Both the position numbers and the translations under genes were made by a program. DNA of 38,181 bases from an uncultured Eggerthellaceae bacterium (GTDB lineage: Bacteria; Actinomycetota; Coriobacteriia; Coriobacteriales; Eggerthellaceae), in NCBI GenBank assembly GCA_905234785.1, contig CAJOIP010000022.1, forward strand, positions 1 to 38,181, given 5' to 3'. Numbering within the stretch: position 1 is the stretch's first letter; each line of letters starts with the position of its first letter. Under the pieces are notes generated by a model. That model was not told where the DNA came from. It ran no database searches and saw only the letters and a list, made by a program, of their open reading frames with translations. This document shows positions 8,248 through 23,610 of this stretch, piece by piece.

Positions 8248-9483
8248 ATGCAAATGCAACCGGCTCAGCTTGAAGCCATCACCAAGCAGTTCGCGACGCT
8301 GAAGGACCACAGCCCGTTTTATGCGAGGAAGTTCGACGGCATCGAGCTGGGCGACGTGAAGACCCAGGCCGACTTCGAGAAGCTGCCCTTCACCGACAAG
8401 GCCGACCTGCGCGAAGCGTACCCGCTGGGACTTGCGGCCGTGCCGCAGGAGAAAATCGTGCGCATCCACAGCTCGTCGGGCACGACGGGCACGCCGGTCA
8501 TCATCCCCTACACCAAGAAGGACGTCGAGGACTGGGCCATCCAGTTCGCGCGCTGCTACGAGTACGCGGGCGTCACGCCGTCCGACCGCGTGCAGATTAC
8601 GCCGGGCTACGGCTTGTGGACGGCCGGCATCGGGTTCCAAGCCGGCTGCGAGCGCTTGGGGGCCATGGCCATCCCCATGGGGCCGGGCAACACCGAAAAG
8701 CAGCTGCAGTTCATGGTCGACATGGAATCCACCGTCCTCACCGCCACTGCCAGCTATGCGCTGCTGCTGGCCGAGGAAATCGAGAAGCGCGGCATCAAGG
8801 ACCAGATCAAGCTGAAGAAGCTGGTCACGGGCTCCGAGCGTTCGGGCGAGAAGATCCGCCAGCGCATCATCGACGGGCTGGGCGTCGAGTTCTACGACAT
8901 CTACGGCCTCACCGAGGTGTACGGCCCCGGTATCGGCATCAACTGCCAGTACGGTCACGGCATGCATGTTTGGAGCGACTACGTGTACGTCGAGATCATC
9001 GACCCGCAAACGGGCGAAGTGCTGCCCGATGGCGCTTGGGGCGAAATCGTGCTGACCACGCTGCAGAAGGAAGGCGCGCCGCTCATCCGCTTCCGCACGC
9101 ACGACCTGTCGCGCATCATCCCCGGCTCGTGCGCGTGCGGCCACGACGAGCATCCGCGCCTCGACACCCTGACGGGCCGTTCCGACGACATGATGAAGAT
9201 TCACGGCGTGAACGTGTTCCCTGCGCAGATCGAGGAGATCCTGAGCGAGTTCCCCGACCTCTCGAGCGAGTACCAGATCCGCATCTCGCATTTGGAGGGC
9301 CGCGACACCATGCGCATCTACATCGAGGCGCCGGGCTCCATCGACTGGGCCGAAACCTCCAAGGCGGTCGCCGCCCGCGCGAAGAGCAAGATCGGCTTCA
9401 CGCCACTCATCAAGATCGTCGAGCTGGGCTTCCTGCCCCGCAGCGAGAAGAAAACCAAGCGCGTGTACGACGAGCGGTACTAA
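8248..9483 (+). CDS. Phenylacetate-CoA ligase family protein (arylacetate-CoA ligase)
   Basis: This 411-aa protein is a PaaK-type adenylate-forming enzyme: an arylacetate plus ATP and CoA gives arylacetyl-CoA, AMP and PPi. It shows the phosphate-binding loop SSSGTTGTP (residues 75-83), YGYGLWTAG-like substrate region, YDIYGLTEVYGPG for adenylate binding, and the C-terminal GRSDDMMKIHGVNVFPAQIE plus SEKKTKRV lysine segment. Length fits the family (about 430). Start is placed at ATG 8248 after GAGAAAGAAG; ATG 8215 and 8185 are upstream alternatives, but TACAAT at 8211-8216 looks like the -10 box. It is convergent with iorBA, whose product is an arylacetyl-CoA, so the two likely share aromatic amino-acid fermentation. 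Confidence 0.88.
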   Translation: MQMQPAQLEAITKQFATLKDHSPFYARKFDGIELGDVKTQADFEKLPFTDKADLREAYPLGLAAVPQEKIVRIHSSSGTTGTPVIIPYTKKDVEDWAIQFARCYEYAGVTPSDRVQITPGYGLWTAGIGFQAGCERLGAMAIPMGPGNTEKQLQFMVDMESTVLTATASYALLLAEEIEKRGIKDQIKLKKLVTGSERSGEKIRQRIIDGLGVEFYDIYGLTEVYGPGIGINCQYGHGMHVWSDYVYVEIIDPQTGEVLPDGAWGEIVLTTLQKEGAPLIRFRTHDLSRIIPGSCACGHDEHPRLDTLTGRSDDMMKIHGVNVFPAQIEEILSEFPDLSSEYQIRISHLEGRDTMRIYIEAPGSIDWAETSKAVAARAKSKIGFTPLIKIVELGFLPRSEKKTKRVYDERY

Positions 9484-9503
9484 GGCGCGAACAAGGCAAT
9501 CGC

Positions 9504-9533
9504 AAACGCCCGCCGAAAACGGCGGGCGTTTTT
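9504..9533 (+). terminator. Intrinsic terminator between convergent paaK-like gene and iorB
   Basis: A 12-bp GC-rich stem (AAACGCCCGCCG / CGGCGGGCGTTT) with loop AAAA is followed by TTTTT. The A-run on the left side may let it work weakly on the minus strand too. Confidence 0.9.
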
Positions 9534-9569
9534 CGTAGGGGCGCGACAGAGGCCAATCTCTGCGAGCCG

Positions 9570-10163
9570 CTACAGAATTGCGGCGTCGATGGCGTTCAGG
9601 TTCATATCGACGAACTGGGGCTTCACGCATACGCGAACCGCCTCGCGCACATCGTCGACGGAAAGCGGCAGGCGCCCTGTCGCGACGGCGCACGCGAGCA
9701 ACACGGTGTTCAGCACCTTCCGGCTGCCCGCGCGCTTCAGCAACGCGTTGTCGGGAACGACGACCAGGCGATCGGGAGCGCCGTCGAACGCCCCGACCAG
9801 CTGCTCGATGATGCGCGCGCCGCGGTACGGGTCGGCGCTGAGCGCTGCGGTGACGGGCTGAATCGCCGTCGTGGCGGTAACCAGAGTGCCGTTGCTCGAA
9901 AGGCACGGAAGCACGCGCGCGCCCTCCGCAGGCTCGAACGAGATGATGAGGTCGGCTTCGCCCTTGGCGATGAGCGGCGAGTACACCTCTTCCCCGTCGT
10001 TGCCCATGCGGACATGCGACACGACCGAGCCGCCGCGCTGCGCCATGCCGATGGTTTCGGCCGTGCGCACGTGCCAGCCCTTTTCCTGGGCGGCCTGGGC
10101 GAGCACCTTTGCGGCAAGGACGGTCCCCTGACCGCCGACGCCGGTGAGCATGACGTTAAGCAT
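9570..10163 (-). CDS. iorB: Indolepyruvate ferredoxin oxidoreductase, beta subunit
   Basis: This 197-aa protein is the small gamma-type subunit of indolepyruvate:ferredoxin oxidoreductase, which with IorA decarboxylates arylpyruvates to arylacetyl-CoA and reduces ferredoxin. The family marks GVGGQGT near the N-terminus and AQRGGSVVSHVRMG (about 41-54) are present. The ATG lies inside the last codons of iorA (8-base overlap), so the two are translationally coupled and made in equal amounts. Start set by AAGGGGG upstream; the ORF is open to 10271 but those residues are the iorA tail in another frame. Confidence 0.92.
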   Translation of the reverse strand: MLNVMLTGVGGQGTVLAAKVLAQAAQEKGWHVRTAETIGMAQRGGSVVSHVRMGNDGEEVYSPLIAKGEADLIISFEPAEGARVLPCLSSNGTLVTATTAIQPVTAALSADPYRGARIIEQLVGAFDGAPDRLVVVPDNALLKRAGSRKVLNTVLLACAVATGRLPLSVDDVREAVRVCVKPQFVDMNLNAIDAAIL

Positions 10164-19718: not shown

Positions 19719-19966
19719 CGGGTGCAAAAGTCCGATTCTCGAACATGCGATGTTCCAAATTGCGACTCTTGCACCCGGAAAGCCGCTCTTGGGCGGCTTC
19801 CGGCCACTGTTTCCCCAGGTCGCAAAATTCGACTGTGAACATTGCGGGTGCAAGAGTCGCAATTCGGAACATTCGCTGCACGAGATTCGAGGTTCTGCAC
19901 CCACACGCAGTCAAAACGCGTGCTTTTGCACCCCAACGTGATCGAGATTGCGACTTCTGCACCCTG
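19719..19966. repeat. Repeat locus 2: 59-bp palindromic element family
   Basis: Two full 59-bp copies (19719-19777 and 19845-19903), each opening with CGGGTGCAA and closing with a reverse-complement TTGCACCC or CTGCACCC, are followed by two inverted half-units ending CTTTTGCACCCC (near 19932) and ACTTCTGCACCC (near 19965). The surrounding gap from 19541 to 19718 shows no supported gene. Confidence 0.85.
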
Positions 19967-19980
19967 GCATGGCCCGGATT

Positions 19981-20068
19981 GCGGGGTTCAAGTCCGTGGA
20001 ATGTCCCCGGAAAAGCAAAACGCCCCGGGCGGGGGCGTTGGGTGTTCATGGTGGTCAGGGAGGGACTT
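19981..20068. repeat. 88-bp duplicate of the tRNA-Phe 3' end and its terminator (copy A)
   Basis: These 88 bases are identical to 20154-20241. Each copy contains GGGGTTCAAGTCC, a terminator-like AACGCCCC...GGGGCGTT stem, and the complement of the tRNA-Phe 3' end (CCA, acceptor and part of the T arm). In this copy the tRNA is cut off after 24 bases or so and is replaced by unrelated palindrome-rich sequence, so it is a tRNA fragment, as left by duplication or by integration at a tRNA 3' end. Confidence 0.85.
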
Positions 20069-20153
20069 GGGCGCTTGCTACGCAAGCGCAGGCCTCGCGC
20101 GGCCGCTATCGCTGCGCTCGGCCACGGACAGCCCACTGGGCTGTCCGGCTCTC

Positions 20154-20241
20154 GCGGGGTTCAAGTCCGTGGAATGTCCCCGGAAAAGCAAAACGCCCCG
20201 GGCGGGGGCGTTGGGTGTTCATGGTGGTCAGGGAGGGACTT
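20154..20241. repeat. 88-bp repeat, copy B (overlaps intact tRNA-Phe)
   Basis: Identical to 19981-20068. It covers the 3' end of tRNA-Phe (20222-20241) and the hairpin downstream of it. Period between copies is 173 bases. Confidence 0.85.
20188..20212 (-). terminator. Terminator downstream of tRNA-Phe
   Basis: Minus strand: AACGCCCC / GGGGCGTT stem with a five-base loop followed by TTGC. The T-run is short. It is duplicated exactly in the upstream 88-bp copy. Confidence 0.55.
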
Positions 20242-20297
20242 GAACCCCCGGCACGGGGATTTTCAGTCCCCTGCTCTACCAACTGAGCTACCTGACC
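20222..20297 (-). tRNA. tRNA-Phe (GAA)
   Basis: The minus strand gives a 76-base cloverleaf: acceptor GGTCAGG/CCTGACC, D loop AGTTGGTA, anticodon loop CTGAAAA (anticodon GAA), T loop TTCAAGT, discriminator A and encoded CCA. A good promoter is 22 bases upstream. Confidence 0.96.
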
Positions 20298-20361: not shown

Positions 20362-21819
20362 TTATCCGAACAGCAATTCGCGTTCTTCGCCGGGCAGGGC
20401 GGCGCGGGCCTGGTCGCGCAGGTTGTTCACGCCGATGAAGAACTGGCGCATCATGGCGACCACCAGGTAGCGGCCCTTCGGCGTGAGCGTCAGCTCCTCG
20501 GGCGTGTCGGTGGCGAACGCGCCGGCCAGTTTCATGAAGGCCATCTCGGCGGGCAGGCCGTTTTCCACCGTCATGCCGAAATCGCGCTCCCACTGCAGCT
20601 TGTCCAGACGCAAGCCGAACAGCTGCATGAGGAAGCGGTAGCGCATGCGGTCGTGGATGTTGAAGTCGGTGCGGCCCATGAGCGACATGCGGCCGGCCTC
20701 GATGGCCTCGCCGTATTCGCGCAGGCTGAAGGTGTTCACGTACAGGCTGCTGCCGAGGTACGTGATGCCGCCCGACCCGATGGCCGGGTATTCCTCGTAT
20801 TGCACGACGTACTCGTCGATCATGTTGGAGGTCGGTTTGGACGCAGCCCTGTTCGGCTTTGGCGGGCGCACGGAGTGCGCCCCTACGGGGAGGGGGGACG
20901 ATTCGTCGGCAGGGTCGGCAGGGCGAGGAGCATCGCCTTGATCGACGGGCGAGCTCGCGCGGCCCTCATCAGTAGCGCTCAGCACGTCACCTTCGTAGTC
21001 GAAGCGATTGTACGTCCAAGCGCTGCTGTGGGTGAACAGCGGCTTGTCGCCGCCGGCCAGCAGCTCGTCGATGATTTGGTAGAAGCGCTGTTCGCGGTCG
21101 TAGTCGACCTTGCCCACCGTGCGAGCCAGCGAGCGTTCGACCGATGGCGACGCCATGAGCGGGTAGAACGTCGTCTGCGTGCAACCCGACTCAACAATGC
21201 GCTCGACGTCGTGGATGAGCATGTCCTCGGTCTGCGCGGGGAAGTTGAAGATCATGTCGGCGTTCATGCTGGTGAAGTACGGCGTGGCCAGCTGAATGCG
21301 CTCGACGATCTCGTCGGCGCAGCCGTACTTGTCGTAGCGGTCCATCTGCTTCAGCAGGCCGTCGTCGAAGCTCTGCACGCCGACGGAGAGGCGCTGCACG
21401 CGGCCTTCCAACTTCTCCAAAATCTCCGGCACCAGATGGTTCGGGTTGGTCTCGCTGGAAACCTCCTTCACGCTGAACAGGTCGCGCGCCTGATCGATCG
21501 TGGCGCACAGCTCGTCGATCATGACCGTGGGCGTGCCGCCGCCGACATACACGCTGTCGAAGTCGTAGCCGAGGTCGGCCAGCATGCGCATCTCCTTGCG
21601 CATCGATTCGAAGTACGGCACGGCGCGCTTCTCCGAAAACGGGAAGCGGTTGAACGAGCAGTACGGGCACAGCTTCGTGCAGAACGGCACGTGCATGTAC
21701 AGCATGTACTTCTGCCCCGGCTTGGGGCCGGGCACATGCGTGTCGGTCGTGGGGTTGATCTTCAGGTAGTTTTTCGACGTCTCGCGCACGGCGAGGCTGA
21801 TTAAACGTTCGGATAACAT
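20362..21819 (-). CDS. HemN/HemW-like radical SAM protein (coproporphyrinogen III oxidase family)
   Basis: This 485-aa cytosolic enzyme has the radical-SAM cluster motif CTKLCPYC (Cys47, Cys51, Cys54), the SAM-binding VYVGGGTPTV (90-98), SSETNPNHL, RLSVGVQSFDDGLL (143-156) and FNFPAQTEDM, which together are HemN/HemW-type. It is longer than HemW (about 380), partly through an insertion at about 282-333 that is Pro/Ser/Asp-rich and contains PVGAHSVRPP, encoded by a palindromic genomic repeat (20861-20888). It could be an oxygen-independent coproporphyrinogen oxidase, a heme chaperone or another family member; no heme genes are adjacent. GAGGAATCTC precedes ATG. Confidence 0.8.
   Translation of the reverse strand: MLSERLISLAVRETSKNYLKINPTTDTHVPGPKPGQKYMLYMHVPFCTKLCPYCSFNRFPFSEKRAVPYFESMRKEMRMLADLGYDFDSVYVGGGTPTVMIDELCATIDQARDLFSVKEVSSETNPNHLVPEILEKLEGRVQRLSVGVQSFDDGLLKQMDRYDKYGCADEIVERIQLATPYFTSMNADMIFNFPAQTEDMLIHDVERIVESGCTQTTFYPLMASPSVERSLARTVGKVDYDREQRFYQIIDELLAGGDKPLFTHSSAWTYNRFDYEGDVLSATDEGRASSPVDQGDAPRPADPADESSPLPVGAHSVRPPKPNRAASKPTSNMIDEYVVQYEEYPAIGSGGITYLGSSLYVNTFSLREYGEAIEAGRMSLMGRTDFNIHDRMRYRFLMQLFGLRLDKLQWERDFGMTVENGLPAEMAFMKLAGAFATDTPEELTLTPKGRYLVVAMMRQFFIGVNNLRDQARAALPGEERELLFG
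20861..20888. repeat. GTAGGGGCG-family palindrome inside a coding region
   Basis: GGCGGGCGCACGGAG and the closing TGCGCCCCTACGG form a stem. It sits in frame in the HemN-like gene and encodes VGAHSVRPP on the minus strand. Confidence 0.7.
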
Positions 21820-21842
21820 GAGATTCCTCGGTCGTTTCCCTA

Positions 21843-21851
21843 TGCTATAAT
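21843..21851 (+). promoter_or_regulatory. Extended -10 promoter of the candidate antisense RNA
   Basis: TGCTATAAT is a perfect extended -10. It lies upstream (in antisense direction) of the HemN-like gene and points into the small-RNA region; no protein gene on the plus strand follows. Confidence 0.6.
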
Positions 21852-21857
21852 TCGCCG

Positions 21858-21937
21858 TGAAGGCGCCCCGAGCATCCGGGTAGCGTTTTCGGTTTGGTTA
21901 AGCCGGGTCGTCCTCTAAACTGGCTCGGCTTTTTCTT
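21858..21937 (+). ncRNA. Candidate small RNA, possible type I antitoxin
   Basis: Between an extended -10 promoter and an intrinsic terminator (stem 21900-21909 with 21922-21931, then TTTTTCTTT) lies an ~80-base transcript with no ORF or Shine-Dalgarno. Its leader shares AAGGCGC and GCATCCGGGTAGC with the leader of the opposing small-peptide transcript. The terminator stem uses two G-U pairs that become C-A mismatches on the other strand, so it works in this direction. It would be fully complementary to any read-through 3' end of the peptide mRNA. I do not match it to a known riboswitch family. Confidence 0.5.
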
Positions 21938-21957
21938 TCTTCAAACACCATTCGCCG

Positions 21958-22044
21958 TCACTCCCTTCTCACCAGCATCAAGCCGATAATCCCTATCACC
22001 ACGAGCAACAAGTCACAAATTGCAGAGACTGTCTGTGGGTCCAT
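21958..22044 (-). CDS. 28-aa hydrophobic peptide, possible type I toxin
   Basis: A 28-codon ORF encodes a peptide beginning MDPQTVSAICDLLL and ending GLMLVRRE: one predicted membrane helix of about 18 residues, then a basic end. This is the build of type I toxins such as Fst/TxpA/BsrG and the short holin-like toxins, though no sequence match is claimed. GGGGG stands 6 bases upstream as a possible Shine-Dalgarno; a candidate -10 TACAAT (minus, 22096-22101) is about 50 bases before ATG. The gene converges on the small RNA at 21858-21937. Very short ORFs arise by chance, so confidence rests on context. Confidence 0.45.
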   Translation of the reverse strand: MDPQTVSAICDLLLVVIGIIGLMLVRRE

Positions 22045-22064
22045 TGGCAACCCCCATTCGGTAG

Positions 22065-22121
22065 GCTACCCGGATGCAGCGAAGCGCCTTTGCCGATTGT
22101 AGTATTCAGCCAAGGCGCTTC
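22065..22121 (-). promoter_or_regulatory. Promoter/leader of the 28-aa peptide gene with duplicated leader sequence
   Basis: Minus-strand TACAAT (22096-22101) lies within the loop of a 10-bp inverted repeat (GAAGCGCCTT 22081-22090, AAGGCGCTTC 22112-22121). The leader then reads AAGGCGC and GCATCCGGGTAGC (22065-22077), matching the opposing small RNA's leader. No -35 consensus is seen. Confidence 0.4.
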
Positions 22122-22142
22122 ACGTTACAGTTCGCTTTCACT

Positions 22143-22172
22143 AGCCCAATGGGAAGCCTTCCCCTTTGGGCT
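22143..22172 (-). terminator. Hairpin at the purD stop codon
   Basis: Minus strand AGCCCAA...TTGGGCT with an inner GGGAAG/CTTCCC stem overlaps the purD stop. The T-run is missing, so efficiency is doubtful. Confidence 0.4.
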
Positions 22173-23457
22173 ATTCCCAGGAGCTGCGGCCGTTGATGGC
22201 GCGCAGGCCGATGTCGGTGCGGTTTTGCTTGCCCTCGTAGCTGATGAGGTCGCATGCCTTGTACGCCAGCTCGCGCGCGGCTTGGAAGGTGTCACCCATG
22301 GCGGTGACGTTCAGCACGCGGCCGCCCGCGGTGACGAGCTCGCCGTCGCGCATGGCGGTGCCGGCGTGGTACACCTTCACGTTGTCGAGCGCGTCGGCTG
22401 CGTCGATACCCGTGATGACCTTGCCCTTCTCGTATGCCTTGGGGTAGCCTTCGCTGGCCAGCACCACGGTGACGGCCCACTTGTCGGCCCACTTCAGCTG
22501 GATGTCGTCGGGGCGGCCCTCCGCCACGGCCAGCATGACGTCCGCGAGGTCCGATTCCAAGCGCGGCAGCACGACCTGCGTTTCCGGGTCGCCGAAGCGC
22601 GCGTTGTATTCCAGCAGCTTGGGGCCTTGCGGAGTCAGCATGAAGCCGCCGTACAGCACGCCGCGGTAGTCGTGATCAAACTCGCCCGCCGTTGCGGCCG
22701 CAGCCTGCGCCATGACCTCTTCCATGCGGGCGAGCTCGTCGTCGGTGACAATGGGCACCGGCGAGTACGCGCCCATGCCGCCCGTGTTGGGGCCTTCGTC
22801 GCCATCGTAGGCGCGCTTGTGGTCCTGGCTGGGGGCCATGCAGTACGCCTTGCCCGCGCTGACGAACGCGAGCATGCTGCACTCGGGGCCGGTCAGGCAC
22901 TCCTCGATGACCACCGTGTTGCCGGCCGCGCCGAACGCGCCCTGGAAGCACTCGGTCACGGCGGCGTGCGCCTCTTCGGCCGTGGCCGCCACGACCACGC
23001 CCTTGCCCGCAGCCAGGCCGTCGGCCTTCACCACGATGGGCGCGCCCTTCTCGTCGATGTAGGCATGCGCGGCCGCTTCGTCATCGGTCGAAAGGTATTC
23101 GGCCGTGGGAAGGTTGTTGCGCATCATGAATTCCTTGCAGAAGGTCTTGCTGCCTTCCAGCTGGGCGCCCTGCGCATCGGGGCCGAACACGGAAATGCCC
23201 GCGCCGCGCAGCACGTCGGCCACGCCCGCCACGAGCGGCGCCTCGGGGCCGATGACGACCAGTTCGACGTCGTGCGCCTGCGCGAACTGCAACACCGCAG
23301 CACCATCCTCGGCGTTCAGGCCGGCGACGTTTTCCGCGAAGCCCGCCGTGCCGCCGTTGCCCGGCGCCACGTACAGCTTCTCGCATTTCGGAGATTTGCT
23401 CAGCGCCCACGCGATGGCGTGCTCGCGCCCGCCGCTACCGAGTACCAGGATGTTCAT
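22171..23457 (-). CDS. purD: Phosphoribosylamine-glycine ligase (GARS)
   Basis: This 428-aa ATP-grasp enzyme (EC 6.3.4.13) joins glycine to phosphoribosylamine, the second step of purine synthesis. It shows the N-terminal [13 protein letters not shown], the ATP-grasp loop [26 protein letters not shown], and the metal-binding [17 protein letters not shown]. Length is standard (about 425). Start MNILVLG at 23457 follows AAGGAACGAAC; the upstream open frame to 23691 is translated repeat sequence and is not part of the protein. It lies 178 bases after purA on the same strand, separated by repeats. Confidence 0.96.
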
Positions 23458-23500
23458 GTTCGTTCCTTTCCTTGTCGTTGCGCTTCGCGCAAGGGCCTTC

Positions 23501-23610
23501 GGCCCGGGCGCAGAGGTCTGCGCCCCTACGGGTTCCACCTGTGCGGCCAGCACCCCAGCGGGCGGGCTCGGCCTGCGCGGCCAGCACCCCAGCGGGCGGG
23601 CTCGGCCTGT
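23501..23610. repeat. GTAGGGGCG-family palindrome plus 34-bp tandem repeat between purA and purD
   Basis: 23501-23531 holds a palindromic copy (GGGCGCAGAGG / TCTGCGCCCCTACGG). It is followed by two exact 34-bp units starting GCGGCCAGCACCCCAG (23543-23576 and 23577-23610). No gene is supported. Confidence 0.8.

Follow-up and report, generated by a model that had tools for sequence, protein, structure and literature searches.

We propose that a short intergenic locus on a 38,181-nt contig from an uncultured Eggerthellaceae bacterium (CAJOIP010000022.1; this whole stretch is referred to below as the window) probably represents a new family of type I toxin-antitoxin modules that, in the genomes sampled, is restricted to Eggerthellaceae. 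The product of its minus-strand gene would be a small membrane peptide with harmful effects when overproduced, and a plus-strand antisense RNA (aRNA) probably holds that gene off. An earlier note, made from the letters of the window, had suggested an undescribed module of this kind, with a peptide gene and a small RNA convergent on each other, and comparative evidence from related genomes supports it. The way in which the aRNA acts is more tentative. We put at somewhat under an even chance the proposal that this is the first type I family from Actinomycetota, and that its antitoxin is a mimic of the toxin mRNA leader that competes for a partner near the mRNA 3ʹ end, switching the mRNA between a closed form and a hairpin that hides the Shine-Dalgarno sequence. 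The features of the window locus are as follows.

22096..22101, minus strand: -10 element of the toxin mRNA, TACAAT, from the sequence and its family-wide position
22065..22089, minus strand: leader of the toxin mRNA (X), common to the opposing RNA in 65 scored copies and covarying with its 3ʹ partner
22045..22073, minus strand: predicted Shine-Dalgarno-sequestering hairpin, CCGGGTAGCC + GGGGGTTGCC, 5ʹ of the ATG, from family-wide pairing energies
21958..22044, minus strand: toxin-like peptide gene, 28 aa, a single hydrophobic helix with a basic end, from a 73-match family, codon-level selection and hydropathy
21861..21884, minus strand: 3ʹ partner of the leader (Xʹ), present only if the toxin transcript reads through, from its complementarity to the aRNA leader and from covariation
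21860..21936, plus strand: aRNA, ~77 nt, a 5ʹ hairpin and a terminator hairpin, from a covariance model (R1, 64.2 bits)
21843..21851, plus strand: extended -10 element of the aRNA, TGCTATAAT, from the sequence
21861..21884, plus strand: aRNA copy of leader X, AGGCGCCCCG AGCAT CCGGGTAGC, from leader comparison across copies
21900..21945, plus strand: intrinsic terminator of the aRNA (stem 21900-21910/21921-21931, then a T-rich tract), from fold and sequence

The locus is flanked by purD (22171-23600 region) and a hemN-like gene (20362-21819), both on the minus strand. The leader of the toxin mRNA occupies ~45 nt between the -10 element and the Shine-Dalgarno sequence.

The minus-strand open reading frame (ORF) of 28 codons that the earlier note had singled out is borne out by its translation and by family conservation. 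The window peptide, MDPQTVSAICDLLLVVIGIIGLMLVRRE, runs from the ATG at 22044 to a last codon ending at 21961, with the stop ending at 21958. An in-frame TTG start 6 nt upstream of this ATG was rejected because the members of the family start at ATG. Comparison at the DNA level with 100 relatives yielded three informative homologues, in which the peptide and both leaders are conserved across genera. A profile built from three peptides, and later from 32, gave 73 matches. They are distributed over 47 of 138 Eggerthellaceae genomes, from 23 of 48 genera, and the richest genome holds seven copies, of which three lie inside 4 kb. In a sample of the class (398 genomes), all peptide matches fall within Eggerthellaceae; the carriers include Adlercreutzia, Parvibacter and Eggerthellaceae metagenome bins, as well as Eggerthella lenta in the case of plasmids. 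The peptides are 24-29 aa long with the consensus MDxQTVIAxCAxFxVVIGIxGL..RRK; Cys10 is invariant in the 52 unique peptides and Thr5 is retained in 51. As is general for type I toxins, the gene encodes a small (<60 aa) hydrophobic peptide, with a single hydrophobic segment (17-residue Kyte-Doolittle maximum of 2.9 in the window, mean 2.8 over the 52 unique peptides). Codon comparison of 547 pairs gave 3351, 1188 and 6485 substitutions at positions 1, 2 and 3, respectively, and a ratio of synonymous to nonsynonymous change (pS/pN) of ~7.9 for single changes. The peptide ORF is therefore a genuine coding sequence. Searches of Pfam, NCBIfam, PHROGs and PADLOC gave no match above cut-off, just weak and scattered small transmembrane families. 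In particular, the Fst/Ldr profile has no match among 32 members (Pfam, NCBIfam), and there is no match to Hok-type toxins (Pfam, NCBIfam) or to the holin-like TxpA/BsrG-type toxins of Bacillus subtilis (Pfam, NCBIfam, PHROGs).

The aRNA is conserved as well. A common two-hairpin fold was found in 46 aRNAs, each of the hairpins being supported by compensatory changes, and a covariance model built from these aRNAs has 88 strong matches within Eggerthellaceae; the window copy, with its score of 64.2 bits, is itself among the sequences of the model. Across a phylum sample, the only matches outside Eggerthellaceae have E values of 2e-4 to 9e-4, which we take as chance. An aRNA lies on the opposite strand, 16-76 nt downstream, for 71 of the 73 peptides. 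The remaining two are a copy at a contig end and one (L063) without a recognisable -10 element for the mRNA. In the window, the sequence and the two-hairpin fold uphold the earlier view of a plus-strand RNA with its own extended -10 element and intrinsic terminator, and the terminator does favour the plus direction, having an 11-bp stem on that strand and a clearly weaker stem, without a U tract, on the other. A -10-like hexamer is present 11-15 nt upstream of the leader in nearly all copies, and that of the aRNA is TGn-extended in 43 of 59 unique copies; promoter strength does not clearly differ between the two RNAs (-10 matches of 5.0 vs 4.9). A generic promoter and terminator scan of the window overlooked both promoters and the real terminator, and Rfam at gathering score gave two tRNAs and nothing else. 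The aRNA is complementary solely to the 3ʹ untranslated region (UTR) of the toxin mRNA, a complementarity that presupposes an mRNA extending past the aRNA terminator, and its 3ʹ end halts short of the ORF.

Both leaders were recognised in 65 copies, and every one of these copies has the same two blocks, GGTGCyyCG and CCGGGCrGC, at the start of its toxin mRNA and of its aRNA, near the expected transcription start. Since both RNAs begin with the same leader, the mRNA 5ʹ end is able to pair with its own 3ʹ end, as had been suggested from the window. There, AAGGCGC is common to both leaders (at 21860, and as GCGCCTT at 22084 for the minus-strand leader), and the 13-base inverted match GCATCCGGGTAGC lies exactly at 21872-21884 with its complement at 22065-22077. 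The 13 exact bases understate the match, which comprises AGGCGCyyCG, a spacer and CCGGGTAGC and allows a closure of ~22 bp. In Markov controls, an exact 13-mer inverted pair within 320 bp turns up about once per 38 kb, and several besides this one occur in the window. Hence, the 13-base repeat alone is not beyond chance, and its credibility comes from its conservation across ~65 copies.

Variants of the leader co-occur within loci: GGCGC is found in both leaders in the window, L021 and L068, GACGC in L025 and L029, and GATGC in L012, L033, L075 and L080. Discordant pairs are mostly decayed copies (L030, L031, L077). With obviously decayed copies set aside, 45 distinct sequences were scored for the 19-bp mRNA closure; in these, 96.6% of the cells are paired, and eight pairs show two-sided change (40 cells, against 5.9 in shuffles; 0/500). 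Pairing falls to 35-57% in slid registers, and the closure energy is -41.7 kcal/mol with a locus's own partner vs -37.5 kcal/mol with partners permuted between loci (0/5000). The 5ʹ and 3ʹ ends of the mRNA thus covary within loci, and pairing of the mRNA ends, a feature of hok/Sok and aapA/IsoA, has comparative evidence here in the 19-pair closure.

The leader also pairs elsewhere. The second block pairs with the Shine-Dalgarno region (own -14.4 vs permuted -13.0 kcal/mol; 0/5000), and the first block with the spacer pairs with the sequence directly after the stop codon (own -12.3 vs permuted -10.7; 0/5000). We folded 65 mRNAs with and without Xʹ. Closure exceeded 50% in 52 of them, and the mean number of leader:Shine-Dalgarno pairs fell from 8.2 without Xʹ to 4.1 with it. 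In silico, leader X has two mutually exclusive predicted folds, with the Shine-Dalgarno region or with Xʹ, and both are kept by compensatory change.

How might the aRNA act? The antitoxin would be the ~77-nt RNA, whose whole length is complementary to the toxin mRNA 3ʹ UTR. Its pairing at the 3ʹ UTR would lower toxin output, probably through RNase III cleavage and refolding of the mRNA. Because the aRNA carries a copy of X, it would compete with the mRNA leader for Xʹ. With the aRNA bound, the leader would revert to the Shine-Dalgarno hairpin and translation would be off; with the aRNA lost, X would close on Xʹ and free the ribosome site. This leader switch is the part of the mechanism that we hold tentatively, as somewhat short of probable.

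An alternative is that the same module is controlled as in hok and aapA: the full-length mRNA would be silent through closure and become active once its 3ʹ end is trimmed, with the trimmed form then guarded by the antisense RNA. The closure pairing is strongly conserved, and the window mRNA (234 nt, with a ~22-bp closure) folds better than shuffles (z -3.1), as this alternative would have it. In hok and aapA, the antisense RNA acts, after trimming, on the part of the mRNA that remains. The Eggerthellaceae aRNA, however, matches only the 3ʹ part that trimming would remove, and so could not guard the trimmed mRNA; there is no sign of a 3ʹ-trimmed target. Moreover, closure competes with Shine-Dalgarno sequestration instead of adding to it, and predicted accessibility is not lowered, which is at odds with the earlier suggestion that closure silences the mRNA as in hok. 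Because the aRNA matches nothing but the mRNA 3ʹ UTR, we consider a hok-type mode unlikely. The module nonetheless resembles hok/Sok and aapA/IsoA in its predicted pairings: mRNA 5ʹ/3ʹ end pairing and competing local Shine-Dalgarno hairpins are found in those systems, aapA3 is known to combine closure with a transient Shine-Dalgarno hairpin, and hok and aapA mRNAs are activated by removal of the 3ʹ end (PMC6733600).

The module shares other features with known systems. The bsrG/SR4 and txpA/RatA type I systems of Bacillus subtilis likewise have a small membrane toxin and an antitoxin RNA that pairs at the 3ʹ ends, and binding of SR4 prolongs Shine-Dalgarno sequestration in bsrG mRNA, with the duplex cleaved by RNase III (PMC6562991). 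The peptides, however, are unrelated by profile search, the overlap in Eggerthellaceae is limited to the 3ʹ UTR, and the available part of the literature on the B. subtilis systems mentions no leader that toxin mRNA and antitoxin have in common. The par/Fst locus of pAD1 (Fst/Ldr) resembles the new module in its convergent promoters, a ~30-aa one-helix toxin, a 5ʹ hairpin that hides the Shine-Dalgarno sequence, and carriage on plasmids, phages and chromosomes (PMC7472228). The earlier comparison with fst is imperfect. In fst, direct repeats make the RNAs complementary at their 5ʹ repeats, and a bidirectional terminator is held in common (PMC7472228), whereas the Eggerthellaceae repeats are inverted, the leaders are identical and the terminator is one-way. 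The msoT1/msoA1 pair of Microcystis (2025) is, like ours, a candidate type I system found de novo outside the classical phyla, with an antisense RNA reaching the toxin 3ʹ end; it comes from another phylum and was tested for toxicity in E. coli, whereas our evidence is comparative, and the two are likened by description only (PMC12390103).

A second alternative is that the small membrane peptide is non-toxic and acts as a regulator or signal, with the antisense RNA adjusting its expression. The strong purifying selection, and invariance at residues such as Cys10, are what a useful peptide would show too. Nevertheless, we consider this improbable, given the patchy multicopy spread, carriage on plasmids and a prophage, empty sites, and loss of the peptide alone with the RNA kept. 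Seventeen of the 88 strong aRNAs lack a recognised peptide; some adjoin remnants (L146 retains the mRNA promoter), and others are a subtype with another ORF. In five copies (L003, L077, L058, L156, L159), the toxin is frameshifted, truncated or startless and the aRNA is retained. If the peptide does harm when the RNA is absent, one-sided loss of this kind is to be expected. A frame broken in a relative with its flanks kept, which the earlier note would have counted against a module, was found once, as a 1-nt frameshift in G001 (L003), a fragmented draft genome in which an assembly error is possible; the frame is kept in most copies. Eight strong aRNAs without a recognisable peptide (L139, L140, L141, L143, L145, L147-L149) may be orphan antitoxins or may face unrecognised toxins.

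Eleven same-genus genomes have purD adjoining hemN without the module, and among the other genomes of the genus the peptide is found in G001 only. The window intergenic region has no visible alignment with these empty sites, so no insertion boundary or target-site duplication can be defined. In L110, L116, L117 and L118, other perfect or near-perfect inverted repeats, e.g. GAAGGGTCATTTCTGCAGAAATGACCCTTC, lie upstream of hemN; their presence in several genomes of the genus suggests that the purD-hemN gap is a variable spot.

Among 72,556 plasmids scanned, the sole two matches are 3.8-kb plasmids of E. lenta, NZ_CP089332.1 (L168) and NZ_CP089339.1 (L169), which are closely related (~99% identical across most of their length). 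Both carry an intact peptide, MDAQTVIAVCELLLVVVALIDLVGRRDE, and a 76-bit aRNA, with the module unannotated. They have been described as cryptic, at 5- to 33-fold chromosomal depth, and the available part of that description does not mention the module (PMC8778435). Current pipelines thus miss the module, which lacks annotation even on cryptic plasmids that have been completely sequenced. An aRNA pattern scan of a viral contig collection gave two matches, and a prophage contig (L171) has an intact module at 9340-9640, between tail genes and an integrase. The peptide scan of the viral contig collection found no relative, and a phage collection gave chance matches only. That small plasmids and a prophage carry the module suggests that it serves in maintenance (addiction).

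Could the shared leader instead function as a DNA operator, with a single regulator binding at each of the two promoters? It lies directly downstream of both -10 elements and has inverted symmetry. However, differences between the mRNA leader and the aRNA copy favour G-U-compatible changes (40, against 19 incompatible, with two fixed columns excluded), an excess more in keeping with RNA pairing than with an operator. In addition, covariation links the aRNA copy to its partner within the aRNA hairpin, and the mRNA copy to the Shine-Dalgarno region, and the elements differ between loci while co-changing inside a locus. We regard an operator as quite improbable. Least probable is a miniature transposable element with the leaders as terminal inverted repeats: the repeats are ~24 nt long and ~200 bp apart, and genomic sites differ between genera, but the promoters, which are conserved, fall outside the repeats, the interior encodes a conserved peptide, and most genomes have one to three divergent copies and not near-identical families.

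Several observations weigh against a type I module with a leader switch. Predicted unpaired probabilities change little between truncated and full-length mRNAs, at 0.25 vs 0.34 for the Shine-Dalgarno sequence and 0.50 vs 0.48 for the AUG. With accessibility nearly equal in silico, either fold could be the one translated, and the proposed direction of the switch has weak support. Beyond Xʹ, no sense-strand terminator can be seen, and that the mRNA reaches Xʹ is an assumption; hence, trimming to the closure or Rho-dependent termination has to be assumed, and the mRNA 3ʹ end is the weakest link of the proposed mechanism. The copies are related, so that shuffle counts overstate independence; first-block leader variants arise in several genera despite this relatedness. 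Many genomes in the sample are draft or metagenome-assembled. Finally, the orphan aRNAs L150, L151, L154 and L162 may be a related subtype with a different peptide.

Other loci of similar design were seen. A sister locus with the same layout occurs in two genera (L155, G050:C181; L175-L177, in G050, G055 and G141; L178, G142). Both of its strands share the leader GCGGyGyyyGC..CCGGGTGGTGC, it has an aRNA-like terminator RNA, and its candidate ORF differs, being MDVFECAALATIIQVATWLLLVAIKTLDRM-like. A possible further subtype, MEIILFAIRLLTALTGLATAIMKLCTQSTEQRSRFG, faces a weak aRNA-like match (E 3e-4) in L164 (G101:C4). Elsewhere in the window, at 19900-20290, a ~100-base direct repeat beside tRNA-Phe is visible as recurring peptide strings in the ORF list.

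Our literature search, with subscription papers and most preprints outside it, found no relevant paper tying type I systems to Eggerthella or Coriobacteriia, in line with the earlier statement that no such module is described for the class. Type I systems were previously known just from Proteobacteria, Firmicutes and Tenericutes, to which a cyanobacterial case has been added (PMC12390103). We found no earlier description of leader-mimic control logic, and the toxin family, the antitoxin RNA family and the phylum would all be new to type I systems.

If our interpretation is correct, it would extend type I systems to Actinomycetota, in a family that includes E. lenta, a prevalent human gut species. 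The module could account for the maintenance of the E. lenta cryptic plasmids. Furthermore, with ~65 natural variants and three competing pairings of one leader, it would provide a directly testable RNA switch.
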